Source of the DNA: Lamellibrachia satsuma
Lineage: Eukaryota; Annelida; Polychaeta; Sabellida; Siboglinidae
DNA length: 64,000 nucleotides
Direction of reading: 5' to 3'
Assembly (NCBI GenBank): GCA_033239005.1
Contig: BSQZ01000001.1
Span: forward strand, 31,989,688 to 32,053,687
Made by a program: the position numbers and the translations under genes. The notes below the pieces were generated by a model, which was not told where the DNA came from, made no database searches, and was given only the letters and a program-made list of their open reading frames with translations. Of the stretch, positions 1,377 to 59,100 are shown in pieces (positions within the stretch are counted from its first letter, which is position 1; each line of letters begins with the position of its first letter).

Positions 1377-1395
1377 TATTTATATTTTGCGATAA

Positions 1396-2977
1396 AAACA
1401 AAGAGCACCGTTGTTTCAGCGAGAACAGTATGTGGGAAGGTTTGACCTAGCAGTTGTATGCCGCCCTAGTAATGTAATAATAAACATGGATACTAAGGCG
1501 AAACGTCACAGAGGTCACTCTCACAATTAGGATTGTGATGTCAGACTCTGTATTGGTGAACACGTTGCGTTGTGAACTGCTTTGTGCTGTCCTTCCACTG
1601 AATCCTGGGATGCCGACGTGGCCGGTTTCCTTCGAACAGGGGCGTATCGAGAATTTTTCATTGGGGAGTAGACAACTTTTTTTTAACGCCAGCTATGATG
1701 GAAGCGATGTTTCCAAAACAAACATTCACCAAGTAATACACGTCGCCACAAGGTGGTTATAATCTGTATTTTGCACTGACAGGCGACGGCTTTAGTGGGG
1801 ATGGATCTCTATTATTACCGGCATCATCTATTTAAACAGTGCTCCTACTATTGGGGCGCTTTGGAAGCCACTGTCGGACAATTTATAAGAGAGGCAATCC
1901 GGGTGCCTAATATTAATGGTCGTATCACTGTAGCTGTTGCAGAGGTCACCATGTGTTCATACTTACTGCATTCTGTTATTTTTAAGCCCGTCTTGCGTCG
2001 TGGCATGTTGTGTATACGATATTGTCATGGTGTTGGGATAGCATTTAATTTCAAAAATATTCCAAGCTATTGTGACATTGATCTACTAGTACCTGGATGG
2101 TTGTGTCCACGTGACGATGACTTCCGTGCAGACAGTGCCATGTTAAATGCTTATCAACTTGTTATCTTTCAAGTAATTGATTTATGTTGTTTGACATAAT
2201 TTTATGACATGGGCGATATATACATCGTGTCGTATTTTAGTCATGTAGGTATAGTGCTTGCTAATTATGTTTTAAATTGTTCAGTTTGTTCGCTTATGAT
2301 GTTCACTAAAATGATAATTGTTTTGTTTACTCTGTTTGTTTTCGAAGCCCCGTCTTCATAATTCTGTCTGTGTAATATTTGCTCAATGCTTAGTGTTTTG
2401 TCCGATCTTGCCTATGATATGCGTTCGTTCGAGCAGGCAACTATGTTTTTAATACAGATGAACGAACAGTTGTTTTTATAATGCTCGATAGCCCTGTTGG
2501 AATTTTATTTTTGAGAACGTTTGATGCATATTCTTAATGAGATCACAATTGGCATTGTTGCATACATTTGTGTACGGCATTTATCAGACATTGACATGTT
2601 AATATACGTGCGATATTTTAGAGTATTTTGGTTTTATACAATTGTACGCACTGCGCTGTAAGTTATCTGGGGTCACACATGCGTTTGACCATAGTACTGA
2701 TGACTATTTTAATAAACTGATACTCACAATTACATATGTTAAAATATGACTGGATACTTACAACATAATTCCAAGATAATGTATAGGTGCTCAGTCGAGA
2801 CATCTGGAACCCATTACTGGTCATTCATAAAAAACACAGTCAGTTCACGTCAAGGGATTAGGTCTATGGACACACACAATTTAATTTTATGATACTCCGG
2901 AGGAATGTGACATATTCAACTGTTCGTAAGCACACTTATAGTTGACTCGAATGTACTGTGTATGTCACTGAACGTGA
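1396..2977. other. unit A spacer, no gene seen
   Basis: This matches 7498-9079 in unit B. The open frame 1795-2199 begins like its unit B partner at 7899, but B stops 37 codons earlier after a short indel. It has no motif I recognise, so I do not call it a gene. Confidence 0.6.
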
Positions 2978-3065
2978 GAATGAGACGGAGTCGAACTGAT
3001 GACCTAGTGATGACAGCCACTTAACAAAATATAATCTTCCGTTCTACCAACTGAGTGCCCTCGCT
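2978..3065 (-). pseudogene. decayed tRNA-Tyr, unit A
   Basis: The minus strand keeps recognisable T-arm, intron and D-arm blocks of the local tRNA-Tyr. The acceptor stem, the anticodon region and the B box are mutated and cannot fold. It faces away from a second decayed copy 240 bp to the right. Confidence 0.75.
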
Positions 3066-3308
3066 TATCCGACTCTCGTTAACCTTCGTGAATTCGCCTA
3101 GTAGAGAGTCGTAGGGGTCTCCAGTACTGTCAAACCTACGCGTACAAAATGTTATCACAAAACTCTGGAGATATTTGCCGTACTGTTGACTTTCACAGTC
3201 TCGTAAATAATGACCTCGCTAGAGCAGTGCCAACCAATATTACACCGTGCACGTCGTAACAAGAGTAAGCGACAAACTGAGGGCATGTTATAACAATGAA
3301 TTAGTGTA

Positions 3309-3398
3309 CCCGTGATATCTCAGTTGGTAGAGCGGAAGAATGTAGTGTGTTAAGCTGCTGTAATCCTTGAGACGGCGGGTCGACTCCGTCTCTAATGC
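3309..3398 (+). pseudogene. decayed tRNA-Tyr, unit A, plus strand
   Basis: It begins with an intact 5' acceptor CCCGTGA and a D arm with one change, and retains TGTAG and most of the T arm. The 3' acceptor half is unrelated (TCTAATG), and the anticodon stem has a mismatch, so it is a tRNA relic. Confidence 0.78.
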
Positions 3399-3849
3399 TA
3401 TTTTGGTCAACTCTGTTTAATATTTGTGGGATTTCCATGGCTGCTCTGTAAACGTGTATTGTGACTATTACGTGGTTGTTTCACATGCCAATACGTGCTG
3501 ATGACTAATTACAAACAAACAATATTACTAGGAACTGTTTAAAGGTTGACACCCATGTCATAAACGTTCATTCAACACTATCTCTAGCACATCATACAAC
3601 ACATTCATAATACAGCACGCTCTACATTGTAGACTACTTGGCAACATAAGTCCTCGGTACCGGAAGTCGTTCAGGCAATTTCCATAAAGAACTGCGCGTT
3701 CACTGTGCTGCAGTCAGTCTCCATGAATATGTTTAAGAGTAATATTGGCAGAAATATATGTATATGATAGGGCTATTCTTAAATGAACAAATTGCTGGAC
3801 TCTCGATAAGCCAATGGCTTCTTTGCCCCCTTGCCATACAGAATATTCA

Positions 3850-4060
3850 CCTACTTAGCAATTAGCATTAGTTGGTTAGTAGAAAGCGCATCTACTCACA
3901 TCATATTAACTCACTTGTCTCCTCATTGATCAGAACCCAATTAGATCTTTTTATCTGCGCTCATCCTTAAGGTGAATTTGTTCACGCGTGACGAGAACGC
4001 ATTGTCGCGTAACACTTTCACGGTCATACGTCATAGGGCGTGGCGTAATTATCTGAATCC
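3850..4060 (-). promoter_or_regulatory. relic of the stem-loop-gene upstream region, unit A
   Basis: Read on the minus strand, this resembles 25745-25860. It shows a TTCTCGTCACGCG box, then GAGCGCAGA, then a GGGTTCTGA block, then a GTGAGT...GTGAGTAGAT box like those upstream of the 103-residue genes. No open frame or stem-loop follows it, so it is a promoter-like remnant. Confidence 0.55.
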
Positions 4061-4744
4061 AAACTGACTGATTTTCACGGCCTAACATATCAGTAGGGAT
4101 GTTCACTTAACCACGTTCCTACGTATATAATGCTTACCAAGTCGCGTCGTCGAATCAACCTCCCAATAGGAAATGTTTTAAATTGTGGTTGTTCGTATTA
4201 AATAATTTGAATAAAATATGGAAGTTTTATTAATGACTTCAATAAATGAGAGTTTGCATGACATCAACATATATGCATGTTTCCTTGAAATATCCATCGA
4301 TGTTCTCATGGAAACTATAATTCAAAGTGTTCACACAATACCTGAAAAGCACTAAATCAACTGCACAAATGCGAGTCAGGCATTCCTTCAAGAACGGAAG
4401 ATAGTAGCATGTAAGAAGATGACTGGCAGTCATGGACGGATGGTAACTCTGGAGAAGACGGGTGTGCTTGAGGTCGGACAGCAGAATAATACCTATATAT
4501 GAGACTAGAATTGAAGAAACTGAAACAACCAAACAGTTTGTAGACCTGGATTAAGCTGTTTGTGTGGACGGTGGCGTGGAGACGGAAATTCGCAGGAGAA
4601 TGCGAGGGGGAAAGTGGACGGGGAGATGGGAGATAGATATATATATATATCTGGGAAGCACAAAGGAAAGTTGCTTAACTCGTGCGTAATACCAACATAC
4701 CAATACACAATAATATAGAGTCCCAGTTAGTTAAACAACCGGGT

Positions 4745-5003
4745 GAGACTAGAGGCGAGGGTGAAGAGAGTAGATCAACAAAGAATGGGGAGGTACGTGT
4801 GGAAGATAGTTTCGGGAGGAAGATGAAAAGGAGTCAGTCAAAGTGGGATGGTCACGAGCATGGAATGGAAGTTGATCGGATAAGAGAGGGTAGAAGGAGA
4901 AGGGTAAAACTAAACTTGAGATGGGAGACCTGTGTGAATAAGGAATTGATGGGAGTGGGAGGGGAGTGGAGAACGAGAGCGAGGGAAGGGGAGTGCAGAT
5001 GAC
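4745..5003 (+). mobile_element. LINE fragment, endonuclease/RT C-terminal tail, unit A
   Basis: The plus-strand frame encodes the tail typical of many invertebrate LINE polyproteins: a KRSQSKWDGH block, then a GRRRRVKLNLRWETCV block, then GVGGEWRTRAREG. Frameshifts and missing upstream domains make it a dead fragment. A purine-rich stretch and a short TA run precede it. Confidence 0.7.
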
Positions 5004-5191
5004 AGTGAAAAGGGAACAGTGTTGAAAGTAGAAGGTATACAAAATTCGACGACCGCTGTCGATACCAGCCTCTCCCCGCAGTTCAGGTATAACTAGGAGA
5101 GCCACAACATTTTGTACTTTAAAACAATAAGTGCGAAGCCTCTTTCACACGCCACAATTGTGTGATAACAACCTCTTTATGAGAAAATGTT

Positions 5192-5207
5192 GGCTCTGAA
5201 AAGAGCC
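5192..5207 (-). terminator. histone-type 3' stem-loop, copy 1
   Basis: On the minus strand it reads GGCTCTTTTCAGAGCC: a six-base-pair stem with a TTTC loop. It matches the replication-dependent histone consensus GGYYYUUUUNARRRCC. A purine element AAAGAGG (5172-5178) lies 13 nt further on, the usual spacing for the U7 snRNA target. Confidence 0.92.
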
Positions 5208-5221
5208 ATTTGTTTTGTGCT

Positions 5222-5533
5222 TTACTCGCGGCCGTAGAAACTTTCGTCTTCTACGGTCACTCGTGGGTCATCTCGATGACGGAGCTGCATCAGCTGACCG
5301 GCTTTCATCGCGCCGTACTCGTGATACGCCAAGTAGATCCCCTCGACCACCTGCAGCTCCATCTGCACGCAGTCAATGTAACTACCACGACGTTGCTTAG
5401 CAACACGTCCGCGACGCACTCTCAGTTCCTCAATGCGGCGATAGAGACCCTGGAGCTGACCACAAGTGCGGTCAAGTTGCCTCTCGATAACTGACAAAGA
5501 CTTTGGTGACTTGCTCTGTACCTGAGCTTTCAT
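5222..5533 (-). CDS. 103-residue protein gene with histone-type stem-loop, copy 1
   Basis: This is an intronless frame of 103 codons. The protein is mildly basic and looks mostly helical: an SVIERQLDRTCGQLQ stretch (14-28), a basic patch RRIEELRVRRGRVAKQRRG (32-50), and a conserved tail ending VEDESFYGRE. The start is fixed by a TATA box 44-51 bp upstream (5577-5584) and by agreement with the two other copies. About 14 nt after the stop the transcript contains GGCTCTTTTCAGAGCC and then AAAGAGG, the 3' signal of replication-dependent histone mRNAs. The sequence is no core or linker histone I recognise. Against copy 2 there are four silent and four replacement changes and no indels. Function is unknown; S-phase expression of a chromatin- or DNA-associated protein is an inference. 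Confidence 0.8.
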   Translation of the reverse strand: MKAQVQSKSPKSLSVIERQLDRTCGQLQGLYRRIEELRVRRGRVAKQRRGSYIDCVQMELQVVEGIYLAYHEYGAMKAGQLMQLRHRDDPRVTVEDESFYGRE

Positions 5534-5576
5534 GATGATCGATGTGAGAATTGTGAGTCAATCTGTTCACTCGATG

Positions 5577-5584
5577 CTTATATA
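5577..5584 (-). promoter_or_regulatory. TATA box of copy 1
   Basis: TATATAAG on the minus strand lies 44-51 nt before the ATG, implying a very short 5' leader as in histone genes. The same box is present at the matching place in copies 2 and 3. Confidence 0.75.
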
Positions 5585-6148
5585 CCTGCTGGCTAGTATT
5601 CTGGTAATTAACTCACTAGACATTCCTCGCCATCAAAGACAAAGAGTACCTACTCGCTTCATATTGACTCACTTTCATCCTTGTTGTCAATTAGTTAATT
5701 GCCTTTTTCACGCGGTGCAAAAACAAAGCTCTACTGGACACTTATTCATCCGTGACGGGAATCCATTGTCTCACTACGCAGACACAGCCAATTGTTACAA
5801 GAAATTGCTGACATTCAATTGTGATCGTAACTAGGAGAACATTAGTGAATATATTTAACAAGATTTAACAAGATTGCTCTCTAAACAAAGGCCAAGATGG
5901 GAAGTGCACAAAGAAGCAATTGGCTTATATTTCCACATAAGATGCATATTAACCCGGGGAATACAAAGGAAAACATGATTTGTATAACGCGGTCGAAGTT
6001 AACGTTAAGCTACGGTGATATCAGCAAGCTGTTGGCGAACCTGAAATGTAATACTAAATAATCTTATTATATAACACATTGTTGTATGTGTCTTATGTTC
6101 ATCTTCGTAGACGCCTCGCATCGAACTATAAAAGTATCGTGGGTTTAT

Positions 6149-7285: not shown

Positions 7286-7375
7286 TCCCGCGAGACGGAG
7301 TCGAACCGCCGACCTAAGGATGACAGCCACTTGACACACTACAGTCCTCCGCTCTACCAACTGAGCTATCACGGG
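7286..7375 (-). tRNA. tRNA-Tyr(GTA) with 17-nt intron, unit B
   Basis: Unit B counterpart of the tRNA at 254. The acceptor stem CCCGTGA/TCGCGGG is fully paired (one G-U), with A as discriminator. The D, anticodon and T arms are intact, with a GTA anticodon and a 17-base intron one base after it. Confidence 0.92.
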
Positions 7376-9079
7376 TATGCATTAAGTCATCAAAATTATT
7401 GCCACCACACGCAACTAGCTGTTTTTACAGAGCACACCTACGGTGAATATAATTTGATGCACCCGCGTGAACTTCTTTCGCACACGGCTGACGTCATTAA
7501 AACAAAGAGCACCGTTGTTTCAGCGAGAACAGTATGTGGGAAGGTTTGACCTAGCAGTTGTATGCCGCCCTAGTAATGTAATAATAAACATGGATACTAA
7601 GGCGAAACGTCACAGAGGTCACTCTCACAATTAGGATTGTGACGTCAGACTCTGTATTGGTGAACACGTTGCGTTGTGAACTGCTTTGTGCTGTCCTTCC
7701 ACTGAATCCTGGGATGCCGACGTGGCCGGTTTCCTTCGAACAGGGGCGTATCGAGAATTTTTCATTGGGGGAGTAGACAACTTTTTTTAACGCCAGCTAT
7801 GATGGAAGCGGTGTTTCCAAAACAAACATTCACCAAGTACTACACGTCGCCACAAGGTGGTTATAATCTGTATTTTTCACTGACAGGCGACGGCTTTAGT
7901 GGGGATGGATCTCTATTATTACCGACATCATCTATTTAAACAGTGCTCCTTCTATTGGGGCGCTTTGGAATCCACTGTCGGACAATTTATAAGAGAGGCA
8001 ATCCGGGTGCCTAATATTCATGGTCGTATCACTGTAGCTGTTGCAGAGGTCACCATGTGTTCATACTTACTGCATTCTGTTATTTTTAAGCCCGTCTTGC
8101 GTCGCGGCATGTTGTGTATACGATATTGTCAAGGTGTTGGGATAGCATTTAATTTCAAAAATATTCCAAGCTATTGGACATTCATCTACTAGTACCTGAA
8201 TGATTGTGTCCACGTGACGATGCCTTCGGTGCAGACAGTGCCATGTTAAATGCTTATCAACTTGTTATCTTTCAAGTAATTGATTTATGTTGTTTGACAT
8301 AATTTTATGACATGGGCGATATATGCATCGTGTCGTATTTTAGTCATGTAGGTATAGTGCTTGCTAATTATGTTTTAAATTGTTCAGTTTGTTCGCTTAT
8401 GATATTCACTAAAATGATAATTGTTTTGTTTACTCTGTTTGTTTTCGAAGCCCCGTCTTCATAACTCTGTCTGTGTAATATTTACTCAATGCTTAGTGTT
8501 TTGTCCGATCTTGCCTATGATATGCGTTCGTTCGAGCAGGCAACTATGTTTTTAATACAGATGAACGAACAGTTGTTTTTATAATGCTCGAGAGCCCTGT
8601 TGGAATTTTATTTTTCAGAACGTTTGATGCATATTCTTAATGAGATCACAATTGGCATTGTTGCATACATTTGTGTACGGCATTTATCAGATATTGACAT
8701 GTTAATATACGTGCGATATTTTAGAGTATTTTGGTTTATACAATTGTATGCACTGCGCTGTAAGTTATCTGGGGTCACACATGCGTTTGACCATAGTACT
8801 GATGATTATTTTAATAAACTGATACTCACAATTACATATGTTAAAATATGACTGGATACTTACAAAATAATTCCAAGATAATGTATAGGTGCTCAGTCGA
8901 GACATCTGGAACCCATTACTGGTCATTCATAAAAAACACAGTCAGTTCACGTCAAGGGATTAGGTCTATGGACACATACAATTTAATTTTATGATACTCC
9001 GGAGGAATGTGACATATTCAACTGTTCGTAAGCACACTTATAGTTGACTCAAATGTACTGTGTATGTCACTGAACGTGA

Positions 9080-9165
9080 GAATGAGACGGAGTCGAACTG
9101 ATGACCTAGTGATGACAGCCACTTAACAAACTGTAATCTTCCGTTCTACCAACTGAGTGCTCTCG
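9080..9165 (-). pseudogene. decayed tRNA-Tyr, unit B
   Basis: Unit B counterpart of the relic at 2978, with the same acceptor and anticodon damage, so the decay predates the duplication. Confidence 0.75.
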
Positions 9166-9407
9166 TTTATCCGACTCTCGTTAACCTTCGCGAATTCGCC
9201 TAGTAGAGAGTCGTAGGGGTCCAGTACTGTCAAACCTACGCGTACAAAATGTTATCACATAACTCTGGAGATATTTGCCGTACTGTTGACTTTCACAGTC
9301 TCGTAAATAACGACCTCGCTAGAGCACTGCCAACCAATATTACACCGTGCACGTCGTAACAAGAGTAAGCGACAAACTGAGGGCATGTTATAAAATGAAT
9401 TAGTGTA

Positions 9408-9497
9408 CCCGTGATATCTCAGTCGGTAGAGCGGAGGAATGTAGTGTGTTAAGCTGCTGTAATCCTTGGGACGGCGGGTCGACTCCGTCTCTAATGC
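9408..9497 (+). pseudogene. decayed tRNA-Tyr, unit B, plus strand
   Basis: Unit B counterpart of the relic at 3309. The 3' acceptor half is again unrelated to the 5' half, so no closed cloverleaf is possible. Confidence 0.77.
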
Positions 9498-9959
9498 TAT
9501 TTTGGTCAACTCTGTTTAATATTTGTGGGATTTCCATGGCTGCTCTGTAAACGTGTATTGTGACTATTACGTGGTTGTTTCATATGCCAATACGTGCTGA
9601 TGACTAATTACAAACAAACAATATTACTAGGAACTGTTTAAAGGTTGACACCCATGTCATAAACGTTCATTCAACACTATCTCTAGCACACCATACAACA
9701 CATTCATAATACAGCACGCTCTACATTGTGTTTTAGACTACTTGGCAACATAAGTCCTCGGTACCGGAAGACGTTCAGGCAATTTCCATAAAGAACTGGG
9801 CGTTCACTGTGCTGCAGTCATTCTCCATGAATATGTTTAAGAGTAATATTGGCAGACATATATGTATATGATAGGGCTATTCTTAAATGAATAAATTGCT
9901 GGACTCTCGATAAGCCAATGGCTTCCTTGCCCACTTGCCATACGGAACATTCACCTACT

Positions 9960-10170
9960 TAGCAATTAGCATTAGTTGGTTAATAGAAAGCGCATCTACT
10001 CACATCATATTAACTCACTTATCTCCGGATTGATCAGAACCCAATTAGATCTTCTTTTTACTGCGCTCATCCTTAAGGTGAATTCGTTCACGCGTAAAGA
10101 GAACGCATTGTCGAATAACACTTTCACGGTCATACGTCACAGGGCGTGGCCTAATTATCTGAATCGAAAC
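9960..10170 (-). promoter_or_regulatory. relic of the stem-loop-gene upstream region, unit B
   Basis: Unit B counterpart of the relic at 3850, with the same order of boxes. The CGTCACG core is mutated here. Confidence 0.5.
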
Positions 10171-10715
10171 TGACCGATTTTCACGGTCTAACATATAAGT
10201 AGGGATGTTAACTTAAAAACATTCCTACGTAAATAATGCTTATCAAGTCCTGTCGTCGAATACAACGCCCAAAAGGAAATGCTTTTAAATTGTGTTTGTT
10301 CGTTTTAAATTATTTGAATAACATATGGAAGTTTTATTAATGACTTCAATAAATGAGAGTTTGCATAACATCAACATATATGCATGTATCCTTGAAACAT
10401 CCCTCGATATTCTCATGGAAAATATAACTCAAAGTATTCCTACAATACCTGAAAAGCACTAGATGAACTGCACAAATGCGAGTGAGGCATTCCTTCAAGA
10501 ACGGATGATAGTAGCGTGTAAAAAGATAACACTGGAGAAGACGGGAGTGCTTGAGGTCGGGCAGTAGAATAATACCTATATATATGAGACTAGAATGGAA
10601 GAAACTGAAACAACCAAACGGTTTTGTATACCTGGATTAAGCGGTTTGTGCGGACGGTTGCATGGAGACGGACATTCGCAGGAGAATGGGAGAAGGAAAG
10701 TGGACGGCGTGATGG

Positions 10716-10718
<3 letters not shown>

Positions 10719-10804
<86 letters not shown>
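10719..10804. repeat. (TA)43 microsatellite
   Basis: Perfect TA run in unit B beside the LINE fragment. Unit A has only a short TA run at the matching place. Confidence 0.95.
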
Positions 10805-10806
<2 letters not shown>

Positions 10807-10902
10807 GGGAAGCACAAAGTAAAGTTGCTTAACTCGTGCGTAACACCAACAGACCAATACACAATAATAGAGAGTTCCGGTTAGTTAAACAAACCGGGTG
10901 AG

Positions 10903-11153
10903 ACTAGAGGCGAGGGTGAAGAGAGTAGATCAACAAAGAATGGGGAGGTACGTGTGAAAGATAGTTTTCGGAAGATGAAAAGGAGTCAGTCAAAGTGGGC
11001 TGGTCACATTCATGGAATGGAAGTTGATCGGATGACGGGGGATAGAAGGAAAAGAGTAAGACTAAACTTGAGATGGGAGACTTGTGTGAATAAGGAATTG
11101 ATGGGAGTGGGAGGGGAGTGGAGAACGAGACCGAGGGAAGGGGAGTGCAGATG
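10903..11153 (+). mobile_element. LINE fragment, unit B
   Basis: Unit B copy of the fragment at 4745. It preserves the SKWAGH, LRWETCV and GVGGEWRTR blocks. It lies between the (TA)n and the stem-loop gene on the opposite strand. Confidence 0.7.
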
Positions 11154-11348
11154 ACAGTGAAAAGGGAACAGTGTTGGAAAAAGAAGCTATACAAAATTCG
11201 ACGACCGATGTCGATAACAGCCTCTCCCCGGAGTTCAGGGATAAGGAGAAGAGCCACAACAATGTTTACTTTAAAACAATAAGTGCGAAGCCTCTTTCAC
11301 ACGCTCATGCACAATTGTGTGATTGCAACCTCTTTATGAGAAAATGTT

Positions 11349-11364
11349 GGCTCTGAAAAGAGCC
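11349..11364 (-). terminator. histone-type 3' stem-loop, copy 2
   Basis: Identical 16-nt stem-loop to copy 1, with the AAAGAGG downstream element at 11329-11335. Confidence 0.92.
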
Positions 11365-11378
11365 ATTTGTTTTGAGTT

Positions 11379-11690
11379 TCACTCGCGGCCGTAGAAACTT
11401 TCGTCTTCTACGGTCACTCGTGGGTCATCTCGATGACGGAGCTGCATCAGCTGACCGGCTTTCATCGCGCCGTACTCGTGATACGCCAAGTAGATCCCCT
11501 CGACCACCTGCAGCTCCATCTGCACGCAGTCAGTGTAACTACCACGACGTTGCTTAGCAACACGTCCACGACGCACTCGCAGTTCCTCGATGCGGCGATA
11601 GAGAACCTGGAGCTGACCACAAGTGCGGTCAAGCTGCCTCTCGATAACTGACCAAGACTTTGGTGACTTGCGCTGTACCTGAGCTTTCAT
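11379..11690 (-). CDS. 103-residue protein gene with histone-type stem-loop, copy 2
   Basis: Unit B copy, 103 codons, intronless. It differs from copy 1 at residues 7 (S/R), 13 (L/W), 29 (G/V) and 53 (I/T). Trp13 is shared with copy 3, so Leu13 in copy 1 is probably derived. The stop is TGA here and TAA in copy 1, both followed by the same stem-loop. The TATA box is at 11735-11741. The last 30 or so codons are identical at the DNA level to copy 3 despite the inverted location, which suggests strong constraint or recent gene conversion. Confidence 0.8.
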   Translation of the reverse strand: MKAQVQRKSPKSWSVIERQLDRTCGQLQVLYRRIEELRVRRGRVAKQRRGSYTDCVQMELQVVEGIYLAYHEYGAMKAGQLMQLRHRDDPRVTVEDESFYGRE

Positions 11691-12685
11691 GATGATCGAT
11701 GTGAGAATTGTGAATCAATCTGTTCACTCGATGCTTATATACCTGCTGGCAAGTACTCTGGTAATTAACTCACTAGACATTCCTCGCCGTCAAAGACAAA
11801 GAGTAACTACTCGCTTCATATTGACTCACTTTCATCCTTGTTGTCAATTAGTTAATTGCCTTTTTCACGCGGTGCAAAAACAAAGCTCTGCTGAACACTT
11901 ATTCATCCGTGACGGGAATCCATTGTCTTACTACACAGACACAACCAATTGCTACAAGAAATTGCTGACATTCAATTGTGAGCGTAACTAGGAGAACATT
12001 AGTGAATATATTTATCAAGATTTAACAAGATTGTTATCCAAACAAAGGCCAAGGTCGGAAGTGCACAAGGAAGCCATTGGCTTATTTTTTCACATAAGGT
12101 TCATATAAACCAAGGGAATACATATCAACACAGTGAACACATATCAACCCAGGGAATACGTATCAACCCGGGGAATGCATATCATCCCAGGGAATACAAA
12201 AGAAAACATAATTTGTAGAACGCGGTCGAAGTTATCGTTTCTGGTGTTATCAGTAAGATGTTCGCGAACTTGAAATGTAATGCCAAATAATCTGTTTATT
12301 ATGTGTCTTATGTTCATCTTCCTATACCCTTCGCATCGAACTATACAAGTATCAGGGGTGTGTGTCTCTCTCCCTCTCCCTCTCTCTCACTCTCACTCTC
12401 TCTCTCTCCACCTCTCTCCCCTGTCTCTCTCTGTCTTCCAGTCTTGTTTATATTTACCTTGATGTATATTCATGGACTAGCTTAGTCATACATTTTAACT
12501 AACGCAACTAGTTATTGGTCTTTCGCTATCGTAGATAGTTCATAAAGCAGTTTCCGTTGTAACAGCAGTTGAGCCGGGCATAATGCACACTCCGTTGTAA
12601 CAGCAGTTGAACCGGGCATAATGCACACTCCTGTATCCCGACGGACGGTACGGATTTAGGTTGAACGGAAAATGCAATTAATATG

Positions 12686-13165
12686 TCAACAATGAAAACT
12701 AGCTAATTTACCTCTACTATTTGATACTCTCTGCAAAATGAGTTTTGGCGATTGTGGGTCTGTGGTCTGTACTTCGCATCGCAGTACTGCGAACTGTTAT
12801 TTTAAATTACATTTTAAAAGTACATATTATGTTTTTTTGGTGCAGAGCTTGTTTAACTGCATCATGAAGAAACTGTTGAAAAGAACGCATTCCCGCGAGA
12901 CGGAGTCGAACCGCCGACCTAAGGATGACAGCCACTTAACACACTACAGTCCTCCGCTCTACCAACTGAGCTATCACGGGTATACATTAAGTAATCAAAA
13001 TGATTGCCACCACACGCAAATAGCTGTTTTTACAGAGCACACCAACGGAGAATATAATTTTATGCACACGCGTGAACTTCTTTTGCACACGGCTGACGTC
13101 GTTACGTGTACTGTTAGACCGAACTCGTGCTAACGTTGTCAGCGGGTACATTGTCATTCAAGTAC
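12686..13165. repeat. start of a third tandem unit (C), truncated
   Basis: This stretch matches the beginning of units A and B: the flank, the tRNA-Tyr, and the sequence after it as far as the match to about 529 of unit A. Similarity then stops abruptly and unrelated sequence leading to the homeobox gene follows, so 13165 marks the edge of the array. Confidence 0.85.
12891..12980 (-). tRNA. tRNA-Tyr(GTA) with 17-nt intron, unit C
   Basis: Third copy, in the truncated unit. All four arms and the GTA anticodon are intact, with the same 17-base intron position. The intron varies slightly between copies while the mature tRNA sequence is the same, as expected if the mature tRNA is under selection. 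Confidence 0.92.
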
Positions 13166-23199: not shown

Positions 23200-23473
23200 C
23201 AAGAGTAACTGAGTTAATTTGAAGTGAGTAGATACTCTTTGTCTTAGCCAACGAACAACAATTGGTTAGTTCTCGGCCAAAGTACACTAATTGGTTAGTT
23301 CGCGTCACGCACGAACGAGTTTTGGCTGAACGTAGAGAAAACGACAACACATTGGAATTAAACAATGGCACGAGGAGGAAAGTGAGTTATTCTGAAGTGA
23401 GTGGCTATTCTTTGTCTTAGAGACCGACTATTGGTCAACTCGTTATCGGATTAAGTGCGCAGAGAGTATATAG
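23200..23473 (+). promoter_or_regulatory. promoter region of copy 3
   Basis: TATATAG is at 23467-23473. Upstream, GAAGTGAGTAGATACTCTTT occurs near 23221 and a close variant near 23395. ATTGGTTAG occurs near 23264 and 23289, and a third ATTGG near 23430. The GAAGTGAGT...CTTTGTC box also lies upstream of copies 1 and 2, on the minus strand near 5636-5665 and 11793-11822, so it is the best candidate for a shared control element. Confidence 0.6.
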
Positions 23474-23517: not shown

Positions 23518-23829
23518 ATGAAAGTTCAGGTCCAAAGTAAGTCAGCGAAGTCTTGGTCAGTTATCGAGAGGCAGCTTGACCGCACTTGTGGTCAGCTGCA
23601 GATTCTGCACCGCCGCATAGAGGAACTGCGAGTGCGTCGTGGACGTGTTGCTAAGCAACGTCGTGGTAGTTACACTGACCGCATGCAGATGGAGCTGCAG
23701 GTGGTCGAGGGGATCTACTTTGCGTATTATGAGTATGGCGCGATGAAAGCCGGTCAGCTGATGCAGCTCCGTCATCGAGATGACCCACGAGTGACCGTAG
23801 AAGACGAAAGTTTCTACGGCCGCGAGTGA
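23518..23829 (+). CDS. 103-residue protein gene with histone-type stem-loop, copy 3
   Basis: Third intact copy, plus strand, 103 codons. An upstream in-frame start at 23455 would put the TATA box (23467-23473) inside the coding region, so I use 23518, which matches copies 1 and 2. Against copy 2 it has nine replacements, all in residues 3-71 (for example A3V, Y31H, C55R, H71Y), several silent changes, and no indel. The C-terminal third is unchanged even at silent sites. Upstream are two ATTGGTTAG boxes (inverted CCAAT type), an octamer ATTTGCAT near 23182 and two GAAGTGAGT...CTTTGTCTT boxes. The function of the protein is unknown. Confidence 0.82.
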   Translation: MKVQVQSKSAKSWSVIERQLDRTCGQLQILHRRIEELRVRRGRVAKQRRGSYTDRMQMELQVVEGIYFAYYEYGAMKAGQLMQLRHRDDPRVTVEDESFYGRE

Positions 23830-23843
23830 AACTCAAAACAAAT

Positions 23844-23859
23844 GGCTCTTTTCAGAGCC
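23844..23859 (+). terminator. histone-type 3' stem-loop, copy 3
   Basis: GGCTCTTTTCAGAGCC begins 15 nt after the stop codon. A purine-rich GGAAAGAGG element (AAAGAGG at 23874-23880) follows 14 nt later, where U7 snRNA would pair. Confidence 0.93.
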
Positions 23860-23983
23860 AACATTTTCTTCGGAAAGAGGTTGCCATCATAAAACTGGGA
23901 TTATCCTAAAACTGTTCATGAATAGATAATATAGCAGAGGATTCGCCTTTATTATTTCTTAGTTAAACATAAATTGTATAAAA

Positions 23984-25772: not shown

Positions 25773-25984
25773 GCTGAGCGCAGAGAAAAATACGTCTAAT
25801 CGGGTTCTGAGGAGACGCGTTAGTTAATAAGAAGTGAGTAGATACACTTTGTTTTAATCTGCTAACATTAATTGATCATATCGTGAGTTTAGCGAGCGTA
25901 AGAATTATTAAGAAAATGGAAACGTCTAGGAAGATGACAATGCCATTAGGAGGGAAGTGAGTGAATTTAAACAGCGCCACCAGC

Positions 25985-26037
25985 GAGATGACCTACGAGT
26001 GACCGTGGGAGACAACAGTTTCTACGGCCGCGAGTGA
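25985..26037 (+). pseudogene. truncated fourth copy of the stem-loop gene
   Basis: Only the last 17 or so codons remain (RDDLRVTVGDNSFYGRE, then stop), joined to promoter-like sequence upstream. The stem-loop position (about 26052-26067) reads GGTTATTTTAAGAGCT, which no longer pairs properly. Loss of the gene and decay of the stem-loop go together, which supports the stem-loop being functional in the intact copies. Confidence 0.8.
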
Positions 26038-27216: not shown

Positions 27217-27306
27217 CCCGTGATAGCTCAGTTGGTAGAGCGGAGGACTGTAGTGGACTACGTGGCTGTCATCCTTAGGTCGGCGGTTCGACTCCGTCTC
27301 GCGGGA
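27217..27306 (+). tRNA. tRNA-Tyr(GTA) with 17-nt intron, inverted cassette
   Basis: Acceptor CCCGTGA (27217-27223) pairs with TCGCGGG (27299-27305) and A27306 is the discriminator. The D arm is 27226-27241, the anticodon stem starts at 27243, the anticodon GTA is 27250-27252, and the intron 27254-27270 lies before base 38. The T loop is TTCGACT. The intron sequence differs from the units A-C copies while the mature part is the same. It lies about 3.4 kb downstream of the stem-loop gene at 23518, in the same relative order and orientation as in units A and B. Confidence 0.94.
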
Positions 27307-29252: not shown

Positions 29253-30339
29253 CATCATACATATTTGCAATAATTGTGGTGGCTATTGTTGTTCATAATC
29301 AAGACATTGTTTATCATAATCATCGTCTACGAACTCAACAGTAGCAGCCGCAACAGCAGACTAATCTCCGTAGTCTTCATAATTTATGCGTTTAACGAGC
29401 ATTTCCAATTAACGACTTGTCGTCTCGTGTTGTGGCAATGAACAGTCAAATCAGTTGCTATAAATACACGAGCATATGGCTTTTACGCAAACTCAACCTT
29501 CTATTTATGAAATTACAGTACATATTGATTGAACGAAGCCGTTGGTCCGCGCTCATGAACCATAACACAATAGCGGTGGTAATATCGACAATTAATACAG
29601 CCAATGGCGCTTCAATGTTGAGGAAACTGTACGATATTTACAATATCGTGTACTTTCCATGTGCCCGTGCTTCTTTTGTGTTACATCTTGTTATATTTAA
29701 TTATAGATTACTTCGAGCATTGTCAATTATAAATGGTCATAAATATGTGTAATTGTAACTGTCCAGACACAATGTAAGTACCCACATTCGATAACACGTT
29801 TTGTGTGTTGCGCTATAATACCAATATTAGAACGTGTTATAGCTTGAAACAGACGAACGGTGTTATGATCAGTAATTCCCATGTTATTGTCCGTTAGCTT
29901 ACAATAATTGTTTAAACTGTATTAAACTGTTCGCCATGGTGTAGCTAAATGTTGGGTATTTATATATTAACTTGTAGTAATTGCTTAATTTATGTAATAT
30001 ACTATTCATAGTAAAATATTTTCCGGGTGTCAACAAATAGTAGACACTATGAAAGCTGATTTCCAGTGTTGTCGTCATTTCTTCAGTGTTTCGCCAATTT
30101 ATTCCACGAGTCTATGACGTCCCTGTTCGTGAGCTTGCAGATTTGTTTTAATTCACCAGGGAACAAAATGCAAGTCCCCGTAAGCGTCTGGGACGCCGAG
30201 GGACGCGCTCAGCTGGAGGCACACCACAGCTAATACGTCATAAAAGGAAAACGACTTGTGGGGAACTGAGCGCGCCAGTTAACTTAATGTTTTTGTCGTT
30301 CTGTTTTGCAGACCATGTGGTCGAAACATTGGTTAATAA

Positions 30340-30657
30340 GCGGGCGGGCGGGCGGGCGGGCGGGCGGGCGGGCGGGCGGGCGGGCGGGCGGGCGGGCGGG
30401 CGGGCGGGCGGGCGGGCGGGCGGGCGGGCGGGCGGGCGGGCGGGCGGGCGGGCGGGCGGGCGGGCGGGCGGGCGGGCGGGCGGGCGGGCGGGCGGGCGGG
30501 CGGGCGGGCGGGCGGGCGGGCGGGCGGGCGGGCGGGCGGGCGGGCGGGCGGGCGGGCGGGCGGGCGGGCGGGCGGGCGGGCGGGCGGGCGGGCGGGCGGG
30601 CGGGCGGGCGGGCGGGCGGGCGGGCGGGCGGGCGGGCGGGCGGGCGGGCGGGCGGGC
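30340..30657. repeat. (GGGC)n, about 79 perfect copies
   Basis: About 318 bp of uninterrupted GGGC on the plus strand, with no A or T. Frames read Ala-Gly-Gly-Arg or Pro-Pro-Ala-Arg only because of the repeat. G-triplets with one-base loops can form very stable quadruplexes. Confidence 0.97.
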
Positions 30658-31492
30658 ACAGATAGACAGAAAGACAGGCATACACAGATACATACAGACA
30701 GAAGCACGCACGCACGAACACACATACACAAAGAGACAAACAGAAAACCGATCGATTGTCCCGCGACAAAGTTTTCAAAGAAGACCAACACAGATGAACA
30801 AAGCTGTTCGCTGGGCCCTTCTTCCCCGAAGGGAACAATTGCGCGACGAATTTAATCAAAGCACCATAATATCATAAACAGCTAATAACTCGAGTCCCGC
30901 CGACCACAACACGCGCTACAAATCTACCACCACATATGCATCAATTGCGTCAGTCTCACGCGTTCATCCATCAGCACGTGTTCAATATTCAGACATCGTT
31001 ACCTTGCCGGGAAAGTAATCTTCTATATTTTCTTTGATTAGTAGCGCAATTAAGTTAATCTCGACAGCGTACAAATAAAGCAGGCACTTCGTTAGGGGAA
31101 TATACACGCTGCAGATACACGGTCATCCATACCGCTGCTGTCCCGTGGTAAACACCTTCTATGAGTTAGCGTAGTAGAATTCAAAACGTAAATGCACTAT
31201 GTATGTGAGCAAAAACAAAGCTTGTAACAGTAATAACATAATACAGTTTGCAAGTAAAATGATTGCACACACCATCTCTATAGATATGTTGATTTGTTTT
31301 AGATTTAAATATGGACTTTTTAACCGAGGTAACGCAAACATTAACGATAATGTTTCTACGACACGATAGTAAACGTTGCCACATCGCACGAATGGAAGAC
31401 GTGTTGTTACTCGCCAGTAAACTCTAGGTGCGATGGTTACCTACAGAGCAGTAAACTACACATATACCCACATTGTACAAAATTATATAACG

Positions 31493-50862: not shown

Positions 50863-52179
50863 TATATGTATAGACATTTGATTTATCTTATGATCTTTGT
50901 TTTTTGCCGGTACGTGTGCATCGACGTGAAGGCAGGGTTTAAAAAACAACTCAAACTGAGATTTTAACTTACGATTGAACATATTGACAAGAACGGAAGT
51001 TTAACGTTAACATTTTGGCATAGCTATGGGCGTGAATTAAACCAGCTGGTCATATAATGTGAGTGACTCTTGGCGTTTGGCAGCTATTTAGCATTTCCTT
51101 CCATGCTAACTACTTAATATGCGTATCACGTGTCACATGTATTTTCTATTTGTACATTACACACAATGCATCCTCTATGTCGTATCACGCTATAATTCAG
51201 CTACGGAAAGAAGATGTATTGAATATCTCGCCAAGTAGGTGCGAAAAACCATACACAGCGTCGTCTATTTTTTCCTTCACACATGCCTGCTTTCATACGG
51301 GAAAAAACATTATTCAATTACGTTCCCCGGATCCTGCAAACGTGACCTACATGCGCTTGTTCCCTTCACAATAGAGCCTACGTTTCCCCGAAATCACGAT
51401 GTCTTGACACAATTTCCCAGGATCATGTTTCACAAAACAATTGAACCCTATCGTTGGTGTTTGACAAAGACATTATTTATGATTATATGGCAAACAACAC
51501 GCAAGCTGATAAGAGTGGCGTTACCTGGTGAACCACGTCAAGTTGTCCTTATAATACAGTCCTGCTCAATGAAGTAAGCACCGTTAATAAATAACGTTTG
51601 TGTCCAACGTTGAACAGTGTTCGTGTTTCTTGTGTTTTCGTTCAAAACACAGGGTTGGATGATGCACCAACAATTTTGCTAGCTTGTGCTTTCTGGGTTA
51701 GCTTTAGTAGCTTACTCGTCATGAAAGCCTACTCATCATCACATGACTGAGAAACCAAGTAGTAGTCGTATTTCAATGAGCAAGACAATAAGTTAGCCAA
51801 GAATGGTGTGGCTGTTTAAATGCATTGACTCATCAATGCAGGAATGCACGTCGGGAATATTACATTAGTTTAATGAGAGGTACGTGTGGTTCGCCTTCGC
51901 CACAAACGCCTATGCTACACATTATTTATTATAAAATCGGTTGCATCCCATTCTGATGGATACGATTATTCGTTCAGATGAATTGGTTACTACTTTGCAC
52001 AGCCTAGTTGTAGCAGTACAAGTAGTTTATTACGTTATCAAGTTGCATTATCACACGATTAGGTCATAGTAAGCCAAATAGGACAGGTTTGTGTTTCTTT
52101 TTCAACACCTTATCAATTACGATGATAGGGTTACAATTACAGAAGAAAAAGCATATGTGGTGATGTAATGCGGACATTG

Positions 52180-54110
<1,931 letters not shown>

Positions 54111-56100
54111 TGGTAACTTGATAAATGTACACTGTACACGCCCAATCTATATAAACCGTATCACATTTCCGTGTACACTAGCATGACTCAATGTGTAACG
54201 GGGGTCAAACCGTCAGCATCACTTACACGTTAAAGACTTAACGTAATTACGTCATTACAGTTGCATTATAACAGGTCATACTTGGTGATAATACAATACA
54301 TTACCTACCAAACCATGACTTAATAATATCTATAGAAGTCGGGTTGCTAGAACGAAAAGGTCTGCTAAGGATGAAATGAAAAGTGATTAGACATGTCCTG
54401 GAGGTGAACATAAACGTTGTATAAAAACAATCCTTTGGCGTGCGTGCGTGCGTGCGTGCACGCGCGCGTGTGTTTGTGTGTGAATTTAAGCTTCATATGC
54501 ACACGAAACTAAACGCGTCCACAGTATTGCTTCCCTGGTCAGCTATGCATAATTCATTGTTGCAAAATTCGCTGTGTTGTAGACAAGTAGACACATTTCT
54601 GACTTCTCATGTGTATTTTACTATCAACAATAATTTATTTATTTTACCAGCTGTCCGTGTCTTTACAGCCAACAGTGCGTCTACATCGTTCAGATTTTAT
54701 GGAAACCTACATGACTCAACCGTTACAGTTGATAACCGTGGCGAGTACACAATGCGGCCTGACAGATGAAGATGTATTCAACATAAACTACACACGAACA
54801 ATACAAACAATACAAACGAACACGGTCATGTAATCAAATGACAACATCTGAATGATTTCAGCTGGTCAAATGCGGTACGGTGTTATGCCGCTCTACTCAA
54901 TATTTGTGTTTTTAGCATGTTCCTCATCATAAATACAATTAGTGACCACGTGACCCGTGTCAGGCGGTCGTTATGTCGCCTGGGACTTGCAGTGAATGCG
55001 AAGCATGTGTGAATGTTTGTCTGAGCCAACACCACGCGGCCCCGACACCACTGACAGCCACTTTGGCGTTAGTAGACGTTAGGAGATCGGCGAGCGTTTA
55101 TATGCATTGCTCAGTGATTAATGTAACACGCCTATATACCTAGAGGGACTGTATCTATATTGTGTGTGGTGAACAGTGGATGTATCAGTGCAACTTTAGG
55201 ATGTTGTGAATATATGTTGTGCCAACGTCATGCTGGTTGTTCATAGTAGCACTTATCCTGGAAAGTATGTTCACTGCTGCCGTTATGAATGTGCTGTATT
55301 GTAGACTAATCGGATTTATATATGGGCTGGTGAGGTCAAATAAGGTTGACTGCGTGTCACATCTAGTGCATGAAAACAAGCATAACGCATGGACTGATGT
55401 GTATGTGTGCAGTTGCATTCTGGTCAACTAAATATGAAAGAAGCACGGGGTCGCCCGTGAATTATATGCACTGTTACAACATCCAGTACTTGGAGATTAT
55501 GTATAAGTTCGTGAATGAGCTGCGTATACGTAAATAACAAGGGCAGAGGAGCGACTGGGTTGACTTGTTGAAGGAAAGCAGACATGAAAGAAAGAATGAT
55601 GGATGTATAAGAGGAAAGAAGAACGAACGAACAAACGAATGAACGAAAGGACGGACGGATGGATGGGTGGATGGATGGGTATGCAGAGGATGGTATGAGG
55701 ATGGATGTATAATTTGGCATAATATTGGTAGACAATAGAGTTACAAACATGGTAGCATGATTTAATTTCAGAATATATGAATATACAGAACGGCTGATTT
55801 GTCATAACACAATTCATCTGACTGTACACAACGATATTATCAGACGATGTCTCGAAAAGTTGGGGATTGCAGCAACAACATTCCGCATGCATGTGCAAGA
55901 AAACAAATCACAACATTGCATTGGCCCCGTAGAAAGGCCAATGTTTACACGTGTGTAGATAAACATCCGCGTCTTGATTAACTGCGGTGCGGCAAAATAT
56001 CCAAGACAGCATCAGAACTCAATTATTGATACCATTCAACATAGTATTCGGACCGTCAACATCAATAATTAGAATTTGTATACGAAAATGTATGACCTAC

Positions 56101-59100
56101 CTCGTGTCACTTTGATCTCCCTGTCGAAGCCGTCATTGCCAGTTTCACGCGGCACGGTCCTGCTCTTCTTTTTTGTTGTCGTCGTTGTCGTCGTCTTCTT
56201 TGTGTTGTCAAACATGTTCACAAGATGTCGCGGTGGTTGCCTTTGGCCGTACACCTTCGTCGTGGTCTCGCGGTGGATGCGGGACAGGTCCTGGTCGCTC
56301 GAGTACATGGGATTCTCGCGGCTCTGGAAGTAATGGCCGTGGAAGGGGTTGACGTTGTCCTCGACGACCACCTCGTCAGATTCATTCTCCTCGACGATGT
56401 CGACAACCCGCGGGGCGCCCGTCGTGTCGATGGAGTTCTTGATGAGGATGCTGCCACGAACGACCTGCGGCAGGTTCTCGGCGCTGTGCAGGCCGTAGTT
56501 GTTGTAATCCTCCACCGGCGACAGGTACTGCTCCAGGTCATCCTCCGTCTGCCGGACATTGCCGTTCATCACGACGCGATCCCGGTCCTGGCGCTGCGTC
56601 TCCGTCACCGACCTGACGTAGTATTTCTGCCCTGAACCCTGCGCCGGTGATGGCGGCTGTTGGTCGGTGGGCTTGTAGCCCATCGTCATCGTTTGGTTGA
56701 TCTGCATGCTAAAATTCGACTTGGGGCCGCCGCCGCCGCCGCCGCCGTTGCCGACCGAATAATGAGATGTATTCTGCTCGAATTGGCGGCTGCTGTTGCT
56801 GCTGCTGCAGGCGCTGACAAGCGGCGGTGGAGGGCTTATTCCGTCTGAGTGGACCCGGGTAACACTGTAACCGCCGTCGTATTGCGGCCTCGGTGAGATG
56901 TTCTGCACGGCATAGATACGCTCCTCCCTCGTCGTCATTGCCTGGCCCCCTCCCCCGTCAAGGTACTGTACGGGGGCCGTCTGAATCACCTCGCCGTACG
57001 GCACGCCATCGTTGACATAGCCAAATGACGAGTCGTGTATCTGTGTTTCGTCAACATAGCGCGACGTGCGACTGCCAGGTCGACTCGGTGTCCCGGTGCT
57101 CTTCAGCTTCAGCGTGATGTGGTAGTTTTCCCCTCGTTTGTCAGCGTCCCGCAGCTCCGGGTCGATGCCCAGATCCTGCAGATCTCCCATGGACTCGGCC
57201 TGGTTCAAAGTGTACGAGGTCTGGTCCCGATAGCGCAGGTCCGGGTGCTGGGGAGGCGCAGATATGATACGGTCCTGCATGGCCCGCTGCACCGAGTACT
57301 TACCGCTCGTCGGCTTCCATCGGTACAGCGGTTCGCTGTAGGCCGAGTGCGTCTCCAGGTCGCTCGTGTAGGCGCCGCCGTCCAGTCGCACCTGGGTGAC
57401 GTTGGCTGGTCTGGACCTGGCTGAGTTCCGCCTCACTGGTATACGACCCGTGTGTGACTCGTCCACTCGAAGGTAGCGCGTCTTCGTCGACGATGACCGT
57501 GTCCCGTCGCGCATGTTGGAGTTCGCGACGACCACGGTGGCAGGAGGCTGTCCTGTTGGCTGATGTTCGCACTCGTAGTAATATCCGTTGTAGTCGTTGG
57601 GGAATCCGCGCTGCGCCGCACGCCAGCCGCCGTCTCCACTCTGTGTGATGACTGTCTTGTAGCCGCGAGGAGCTCGCCGTTGACATGCGTGACGGGCAGG
57701 GGGCGTGTCCACCATGTATGGAGACGACGATAGATCACCAGCGCGTCGTCCGTCCATATTCACCTGCACGGTGAGCGGCTGCAGCAGCGGCGCCCGGGCG
57801 GCCCGCGGCGCTAAATCACGGCCGCGGCTCGTCACGGTCGAGCTGCGCGTACGCTGCTGCTGACGTTGTGCGCGAGGCCGCGCGTAGCGGACACGCACGG
57901 CCGACCACGCCGCCGACTCGTCCTCGCTGCTGCTTGCAGTGCTGCGACGTGGCGTCGACAGAGGCGAGTCCGGCCACTGCCTCGGTCCTCCGTACGTCAC
58001 TGGGTGCGACGGTTGATTGTCGAGAACCCTCACGATCAGACCACCCGAGAAGCCTCGGTCCGGTCTCTGTAGAGTGCTCTCTCTTTCGCTTGAAGCCCAG
58101 TAGTTTCTTTCAGTAGTGTGTGTGTCATTCGCCAGGCGGCGACCGCTGTAGGTGTACGCTCCGTTGAACTGTGGCGGCTCGTTGCTATGCAACACGCCTG
58201 AAGCTAAAATCGTATCGATCACAGCTTGGTCCGTGCTATCTCGGGCGGTGTAGTCGAAGTCAGTTCTTTTAACCCAGCCCTCTGGCTGTTTTTCAACAAC
58301 TGTCACGCTGCTGTGTGTATCGGACAATGTGCTGTTCGAGTCGTTGTCACCTATGTCGACCATTGACAATAGCCCGTTGTTTTCATTCCTCTCATCTCCA
58401 TCCATTGCAGTTACCTCTACCTGTCTGAACGAATGGCCGTACCCCGTCGACGAGTGGTGATTAACAGTCGCAGCTTCAGTTTGTTCTCTACTTTCAACTG
58501 TATTCACATAAGCCTGTCTTTGGTTCGAATTTTGCTGTTCCGGGACTCTATCAGATGTGTTTCCATAACGATCCCCGAGCGCCGTCTCGATTTGGTAAGA
58601 ATGCGAATGAATAGTGGGTTCGTTCTCATTCGCAAACTCCAGACTCGGAACCTGTTCCTGCGATGCCATTGCAGCGGCATCGCCAGCGGTTTCGTCGATC
58701 GATTCGACAGTGAACTCTTCGTATGTATCCTGTTGATTTTGATCCGACCCCTCAGTGGGCGACCTATATTCCATTTCGGTCGATGCTATTGCCGCACGCA
58801 GCGATGCTTTTTCTGGAGGACCGGCGGAGTTAACTTTTGTTGTTAGTTTGCGTCTTTTGTCAGTGTGATTCACGCCTGAACTCTCATAGACCGTAGCCGG
58901 TTCAACGGCACTGTCTTCAGTCGCTATGTTCGGCTCAGGGTCAGGTACAGCACTGTCGTCGTTATGTTCACTGTGCTCTGAGTCAGACACCTGTATCAAG
59001 CTAGTCGTGACTTCCGATACACTGCCGCTCGACAAAGCCGCCTTCTTAGCGTGGAATTCCAACAACTGTTTGTGCAGTGATGATTTCTGATCCTTCGTCG

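Follow-up and report, generated by a model that had tools for sequence, protein, structure and literature searches.

The window analysed here, a stretch of 64,000 nucleotides of the Lamellibrachia satsuma genome (C1:31989688-32053687 of the searched genome), contains exactly three sites of GGCTCTTTTCAGAGCC, for which the chance expectation in the window is 0.08 with up to three mismatches permitted. Each site lies 3′ of one 103-codon open reading frame (ORF), and all three ORFs given in the preliminary description are present (Table 1), that of copy 3 being nested in a longer GTG-started frame. The 16-nt element has a 6-bp stem and a 4-nt loop, as in histone-type 3′ ends. The gap between stop codon and stem-loop was 14 nt in all three genes, where 14-16 nt had been described, and TATATA starts 51 nt 5′ of the ATG in each of them. 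AAAGAG starts 13-14 nt past the stem-loop, in agreement with the earlier placement of AAAGAGG; in histone-type 3′ ends the purine-rich downstream element lies about 13-16 nt past it. Furthermore, the Rfam histone 3′ stem-loop model RF00032 (Histone3) aligned over its full length at 5168-5212(-) with 33.6 bits (E 8.6e-8, 801 bases searched); the curated gathering score is 34, and since the copy 1 hairpin falls 0.4 bits below it, the hairpin does not appear in the whole-window gathering search.

Table 1. Positions of the gene features within the window, and loci of the Merlin-type elements that carry the stem-loop.
Feature	Position or loci	Strand	Remark
CDS, copy 1	5222..5533	-	103 aa, intronless, two-helix-hairpin protein (model)
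Histone 3′ stem-loop GGCTCTTTTCAGAGCC, copy 1	5192..5207	-	14 nt past stop
AAAGAGG, putative histone downstream element (U7 target), copy 1	5172..5178	-	
TATA box TATATAA, copy 1	5578..5584	-	start at -51 from ATG
CDS, copy 2	11379..11690	-	103 aa
Histone 3′ stem-loop, copy 2	11349..11364	-	
AAAGAGG, putative histone downstream element, copy 2	11329..11335	-	
TATA box, copy 2	11735..11741	-	
CDS, copy 3	23518..23829	+	103 aa
Histone 3′ stem-loop, copy 3	23844..23859	+	
AAAGAGG, putative histone downstream element, copy 3	23874..23880	+	
TATA box TATATAG, copy 3	23467..23473	+	
Probable relic, fourth copy	25954..26034	+	~residues 77-103, 56% identity, tblastn E 8.8e-5
Merlin-type stem-loop loci, family A	L024, L026, L028, L030, L037, L044, L051		
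Merlin-type stem-loop loci, others (1)	L027, L050, L055		
Merlin-type stem-loop loci, others (2)	L029, L031-L035, L038, L039, L041-L043, L045, L046, L048, L049, L054, L059		

Several other features were recorded in the window. A segmental duplication of ~6 kb (93-95%), between 1392-5965 and 7496-12122, contains the 103-codon gene. A tRNA-like sequence is repeated at 254-343, 7286-7375, 12891-12980 and 27217-27306 (Rfam tRNA, 54-57 bits), and three of these repeats were detected by ARAGORN, one being read as Tyr. An ORF of 2589 aa with internal serine-rich repeats occupies 56069-63838 (-) and was not matched by any Pfam family at E up to 5. A 2-kb TG/CA tract at 52137-54145 is, to judge from the translation, pure or nearly so; at 30290-30730 lies a long repeat of short units in which several frames are open.

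The encoded protein and its relatives

No Pfam family was matched by the three window proteins at E up to 1, and a PDB sequence search with the window protein gave no match. The AlphaFold2 model of the window protein consists of two long antiparallel helices, residues 10-45 and 50-88, with a mean pLDDT of 80; ten-residue means were 80-98 over most of the helical part and below 50 at both ends. Screening of this model with Foldseek and VIA-align retrieved only generic helical hairpins. The ING N-terminal dimerization domain, prefoldin and the Kif21A antiparallel coiled coil display the same generic long antiparallel helical hairpin, a common arrangement for which no Foldseek E value of 0.001 or lower was obtained and which is not evidence of kinship. 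These profile and structure-prediction searches, the check that had been proposed with the preliminary description, uphold its statement that the protein resembles no histone, the modelled structure not being a histone fold.

Profile searching added P0001-P0013 to the family of the window protein; a parent family, whose relatives occur in Lamellibrachia, Mactra and Mya, was reached by way of a diverged match on C107 of the genome. The parent protein, of 150 aa, is modelled as the same hairpin, with ten-residue means of 94-98 from residue 11 to 90, followed by a long, acidic, poorly predicted tail. Family members align to it: the window-type copies did so with E values of 6.7e-6 to 9.5e-4 and 28-31% identity (n=11), and in a single comparison P0046 was 31% identical to copy 3 over 67 aa (E 5e-9). 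By protein, the same two-helix family includes LSAT2_008627, LSAT2_015069 and LSAT2_019049 of Lamellibrachia satsuma, NP493_229g03068 of Ridgeia piscesae, ACF0H5_017252 of Mactra antiquata and MAR_014602 of Mya arenaria, all of which are, by record name, annotated solely as hypothetical. One genomic family protein is 100% identical to LSAT2_008627, the parent-like gene L076, which lacks the stem-loop, unlike most family members read. Member L080, which bears the stem-loop, is identical over 119/119 aa to LSAT2_015069. In P0001 and P0057, as read from the protein letters only, the stop codon has apparently been lost and the stem-loop is read as coding (MALFRAN, TVLLRAN).

The preliminary description of a basic, H4-sized protein holds for copy 1 (103 aa, pI 9.46). 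Among 24 other members whose ORF could be read through, 16 were acidic (pI 4.2-5.4) and eight neutral or basic (pI 7.5-10.1); given this spread from 4.2 to 10.1, the family as a whole is not characteristically basic.

Recurrence of the stem-loop across the family

A protein search of the genome (735 Mb) with the window protein gave 15 matches, nine of them clustered at C1:31.957-32.014 Mb (three within the window), two at C1:186-190 kb and four more distant. A truncated gene copy lies beside the intact one at C1:186 kb (L014, ~404-490). In all 11 close copies the 103-codon ORF is intact, the TATA box lies at -51 and the stem-loop follows the stop after a 14-nt gap. The exact GGCTCTTTTCAGAGCC motif is present in nine of them; one other has GGTTCTTTTCAGGACC, in which C-G is replaced by U-A at one stem pair and U-A by U-G at another, and in one the terminal stem pair is G-U. 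Downstream, AAAGAG occurs at +13/+14 in 10 of the 11 and AGAAGAAG at +13 in the remaining copy. Values of dN/dS were 0.22-0.36 among the printed close-copy pairs with dS of at least 0.15; closer pairs, with few changes and hence noisy, reached 0.87. Judging from the diverged pairs, the close copies are under purifying selection. No AATAAA or ATTAAA was present within 479-600 nt past the stop in 10 of the 11 copies, and one copy has AATAAA 253 nt downstream; as the copies are related and the estimated expectation is less than one signal per copy, this absence is weak evidence.

With the parent protein, 88 genomic matches were obtained at E up to 0.01, a number that includes fragments of one gene and matches holding stops, and of which about 40 lie outside the stem-loop reading. 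A stem-loop (up to four mismatches, at least five pairs) was present within 150 nt of the stop in 25 of the 30 best of these 88 matches, against a background of 1 in 1026 other 150-nt windows from the same loci. The misses among the best 30 were L076, L091 and L097, together with L085 and L092, both of which contain in-frame stops. When the 11 close copies and L016, L017 and L018 are included, 38 of 44 members read carry the stem-loop, L018 being the sixth miss. Both L016 and L017 have two tandem stem-loops per stop, the second being TGCTCTCTTCAGAGCA, with a compensatory outer pair. Moreover, the variant GGTTCTTYTCAGARCC was found at 38 genomic sites, against none for the backwards control, and by comparison of coordinates 17 of these follow a family match at a distance of up to 190 nt; by the same comparison, four matches beyond the 44 members read (C10:3694180, C14:10398990, C18:2302421 and C32:6718481) are followed by GGTTCTTYTCAGARCC within this distance.

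Of 36 members scored (the 25 stem-loop carriers among the best 30 matches and the 11 close copies, L016 and L017 excluded), 31 have an AAAGA or AGAAGA element at +6 to +28 and five do not; mononucleotide shuffles gave a mean of 1.6 and a maximum of 6. Across 14 distinct stem-loop rows, 96.4% of cells are paired and two pairs have changed on both sides, and the covariation score was matched by 4 of 500 shuffles; on the first six rows covariation was weak (51 of 500). The stem changes are partly compensatory. In a tree of 38 rows the stem-loop members fall into several separate clades, with six changes, at least three of which are forced by well-supported branches, while long branches leave the deep order unsure. 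Hence the signal was either ancestral and then lost, or gained more than once. Taken as a whole, the family is large, undescribed and lophotrochozoan, with arrays for example on C1, C10, C16, C18 and C32, and the earlier proposal is borne out in so far as this is a real, selected, multi-copy gene family, distinct from the known histone classes, whose 3′ end is of histone type.

Stem-loops in transposon-like repeats

The exact GGCTCTTTTCAGAGCC motif occurs 230 times genome-wide (106 and 124 per strand), and its backwards-pattern control not at all. Hosts were sorted among the first 100 of these sites (C1 to C15). Histone clusters on C5 and C14 account for 51, as assigned by neighbourhood (C5:4470000-4478200 was read directly), single histone genes for two (L061, L062), histone remnants for two (L058, L060), window-type copies for nine and other family members for two; the last, L036 and L040, were thereby reached independently of the protein searches, through the exact-motif scan. 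The remaining 34 sites (33 loci) lie in transposon-like repeats, so that among the 100 sites listed the only hosts that are neither histone genes nor transposons belong to the two-helix family.

Of 37 orphan stem-loop loci, 33 are transposon-like: 27 are Merlin-type (20 assigned by protein match, six by DNA clustering and L055 solely by its 3′ end), two are Mutator-type and four have a Mutator-type 3′ end. Histones and the two-helix family are therefore not the sole users of the stem-loop, and the earlier view that histone genes are almost alone in this has to be widened to such repeats. The Pfam domain DDE_Tnp_IS1595 was found in L030 and L050 (E 4.8e-18 and 1.7e-18), and in L024, L030, L034, L039 and L050 the stem-loop lies 22-54 nt past the transposase stop. 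L053 encodes a Mutator transposase (PF20700, E 3e-34) and L052 is 83% identical to it; both, together with the repeats L025, L047, L056 and L057, have the same stem-loop end plus AAAGAG or GAAGAG. Within 60 nt of the stem-loop, 13 of the 33 transposon-like loci have AAAGAG, nine more AAGAG, eight AAAATAG and three none of these. No clear terminal inverted repeats or target-site duplication emerged for the Merlin-type elements examined. Some Merlin copies carry a second, similar hairpin, and the family-A copies L064 and L065 share 96% identity over 2.3 kb.

The Merlin (IS1595-like) and Mutator-like transposons of this genome thus resemble the two-helix genes in carrying the same stem-loop, shortly 3′ of the transposase ORF in copies that have kept it intact, and differ from them in encoding transposases, for which no protein similarity to the two-helix family was detected. 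In tblastn searches at E up to 1e-4, the parent protein did not match the transposase loci, nor did three transposases match L036 or L040.

Probable histone-type processing and its alternatives

In histone-type 3′ end formation, SLBP and the U7 snRNP are bound to the transcript, CPSF73 cuts it, no poly(A) is added and the mRNA is confined to S phase. For the SLBP RNA-binding domain (PF15247), two stretches above the cut-off were found on C34 (48 and 29.2 bits). The second contains a stop in its open frame, which would fit an exon edge. A genome search for U7 snRNA gave no match, and the search controls were silent too.

We consider it likely, from the gene sequences, that the mRNAs of the two-helix family are replication-dependent, SLBP/U7-processed and non-histone. 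The signals, their spacing, their family-wide recurrence, the partial covariation, the selected intact ORFs and the genomic SLBP domain are established at the level of sequence; processing and S-phase coupling, taken over from the known pathway, are very likely by analogy. The genes are predicted to encode antiparallel two-helix (coiled-coil hairpin) proteins. SLBP would bind the stem-loop of their mRNAs, the U7 snRNP would pair with the AAAGAG element, AAAGAGTTGCT being a candidate pairing stretch, and CPSF73 would cut between the two, to leave an mRNA ending in the stem-loop and devoid of poly(A). Such processing would imply that production and translation take place in S phase and that the mRNA is destroyed once replication stops. 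For the function of the protein we tentatively suggest that of a nuclear adaptor or dimeric hairpin required in amounts that match the new chromatin, with the odds somewhat against it; it might, for example, be a partner of histones or chromatin in rapidly dividing cells, such as those at cleavage stage, and acidic and basic members could form partner pairs. Association of the protein with chromatin is a guess.

The abundance of transposon-like hosts among the orphan stem-loop loci, and the scatter of family matches over many contigs, some with in-frame stops, would suit a family that is mobile-element cargo or transposon-derived, its hairpin being a signal of the element and not of host regulation. 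This is unlikely in view of the purifying selection and intact state of all 11 close copies, the family arrays on C1, C10, C16, C18 and C32, the bivalve relatives and the mutually negative tblastn searches. Passive hitchhiking, in which the genes would be fusions with histone 3′ ends whose stem-loops are ignored in favour of polyadenylation further down, appears less likely still: the single copy with a downstream AATAAA is in its favour, but several subfamilies that have diverged from one another retain both stem-loop and downstream element, the changes in their stems being compensatory, and the stem-loop members occupy several separate clades of the tree.

Least credible, to the point of near-exclusion, is a reading of the protein as a strongly diverged histone or other member of the histone fold, such as an H4-derived variant. 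The H4-like length, the pI of copy 1 and the histone-type gene anatomy are what it would explain; the Pfam and PDB sequence searches without a match, the two long helices predicted in place of a three-helix histone fold, and the alignment of members to an acidic-tailed parent all speak against it. Histone identity is accordingly disfavoured, no histone profile or sequence having been matched and the three-helix fold being absent from the prediction.

Processing of the two-helix mRNAs by the histone pathway hence remains the preferred reading. On balance we favour, with less assurance, a broader one, in which SLBP/U7 processing in siboglinids, and perhaps in lophotrochozoans, acts as an S-phase cassette for up to about 88 non-histone hairpin genes and at least two kinds of DNA transposon. 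If true, the hairpin protein would be an undescribed animal protein made in step with DNA replication, its genes would be natural non-histone reporters of what the SLBP/U7 pathway really couples to, and the transposase of the stem-loop transposons would be made only during DNA copying. These transposons would also offer a direct test of whether transposon activity can be tied to S phase via RNA processing.

The literature search, with subscription papers mostly outside its coverage, revealed neither a non-histone family nor transposons reported to carry the histone stem-loop. Histone mRNAs are described as unique among animal protein-coding mRNAs in ending in a stem-loop and not in poly(A) (PMC6303110) and as the only known ones with such a 3′ end (PMC2642717). 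A large selected non-histone family, and transposons, with histone signals would break this histone-only rule. The product of the two-helix genes differs from that of histone mRNAs in not being a histone. In their signals the two agree: replication-dependent histone mRNAs (RF00032, SLBP/U7) have the same 16-nt stem-loop, an ACAAA-type upstream flank and an AAAGAG-type downstream element, the histone genes of this same genome share the stem-loop and have similar downstream elements, and replication-dependent histone genes are likewise short TATA genes in multi-copy arrays.
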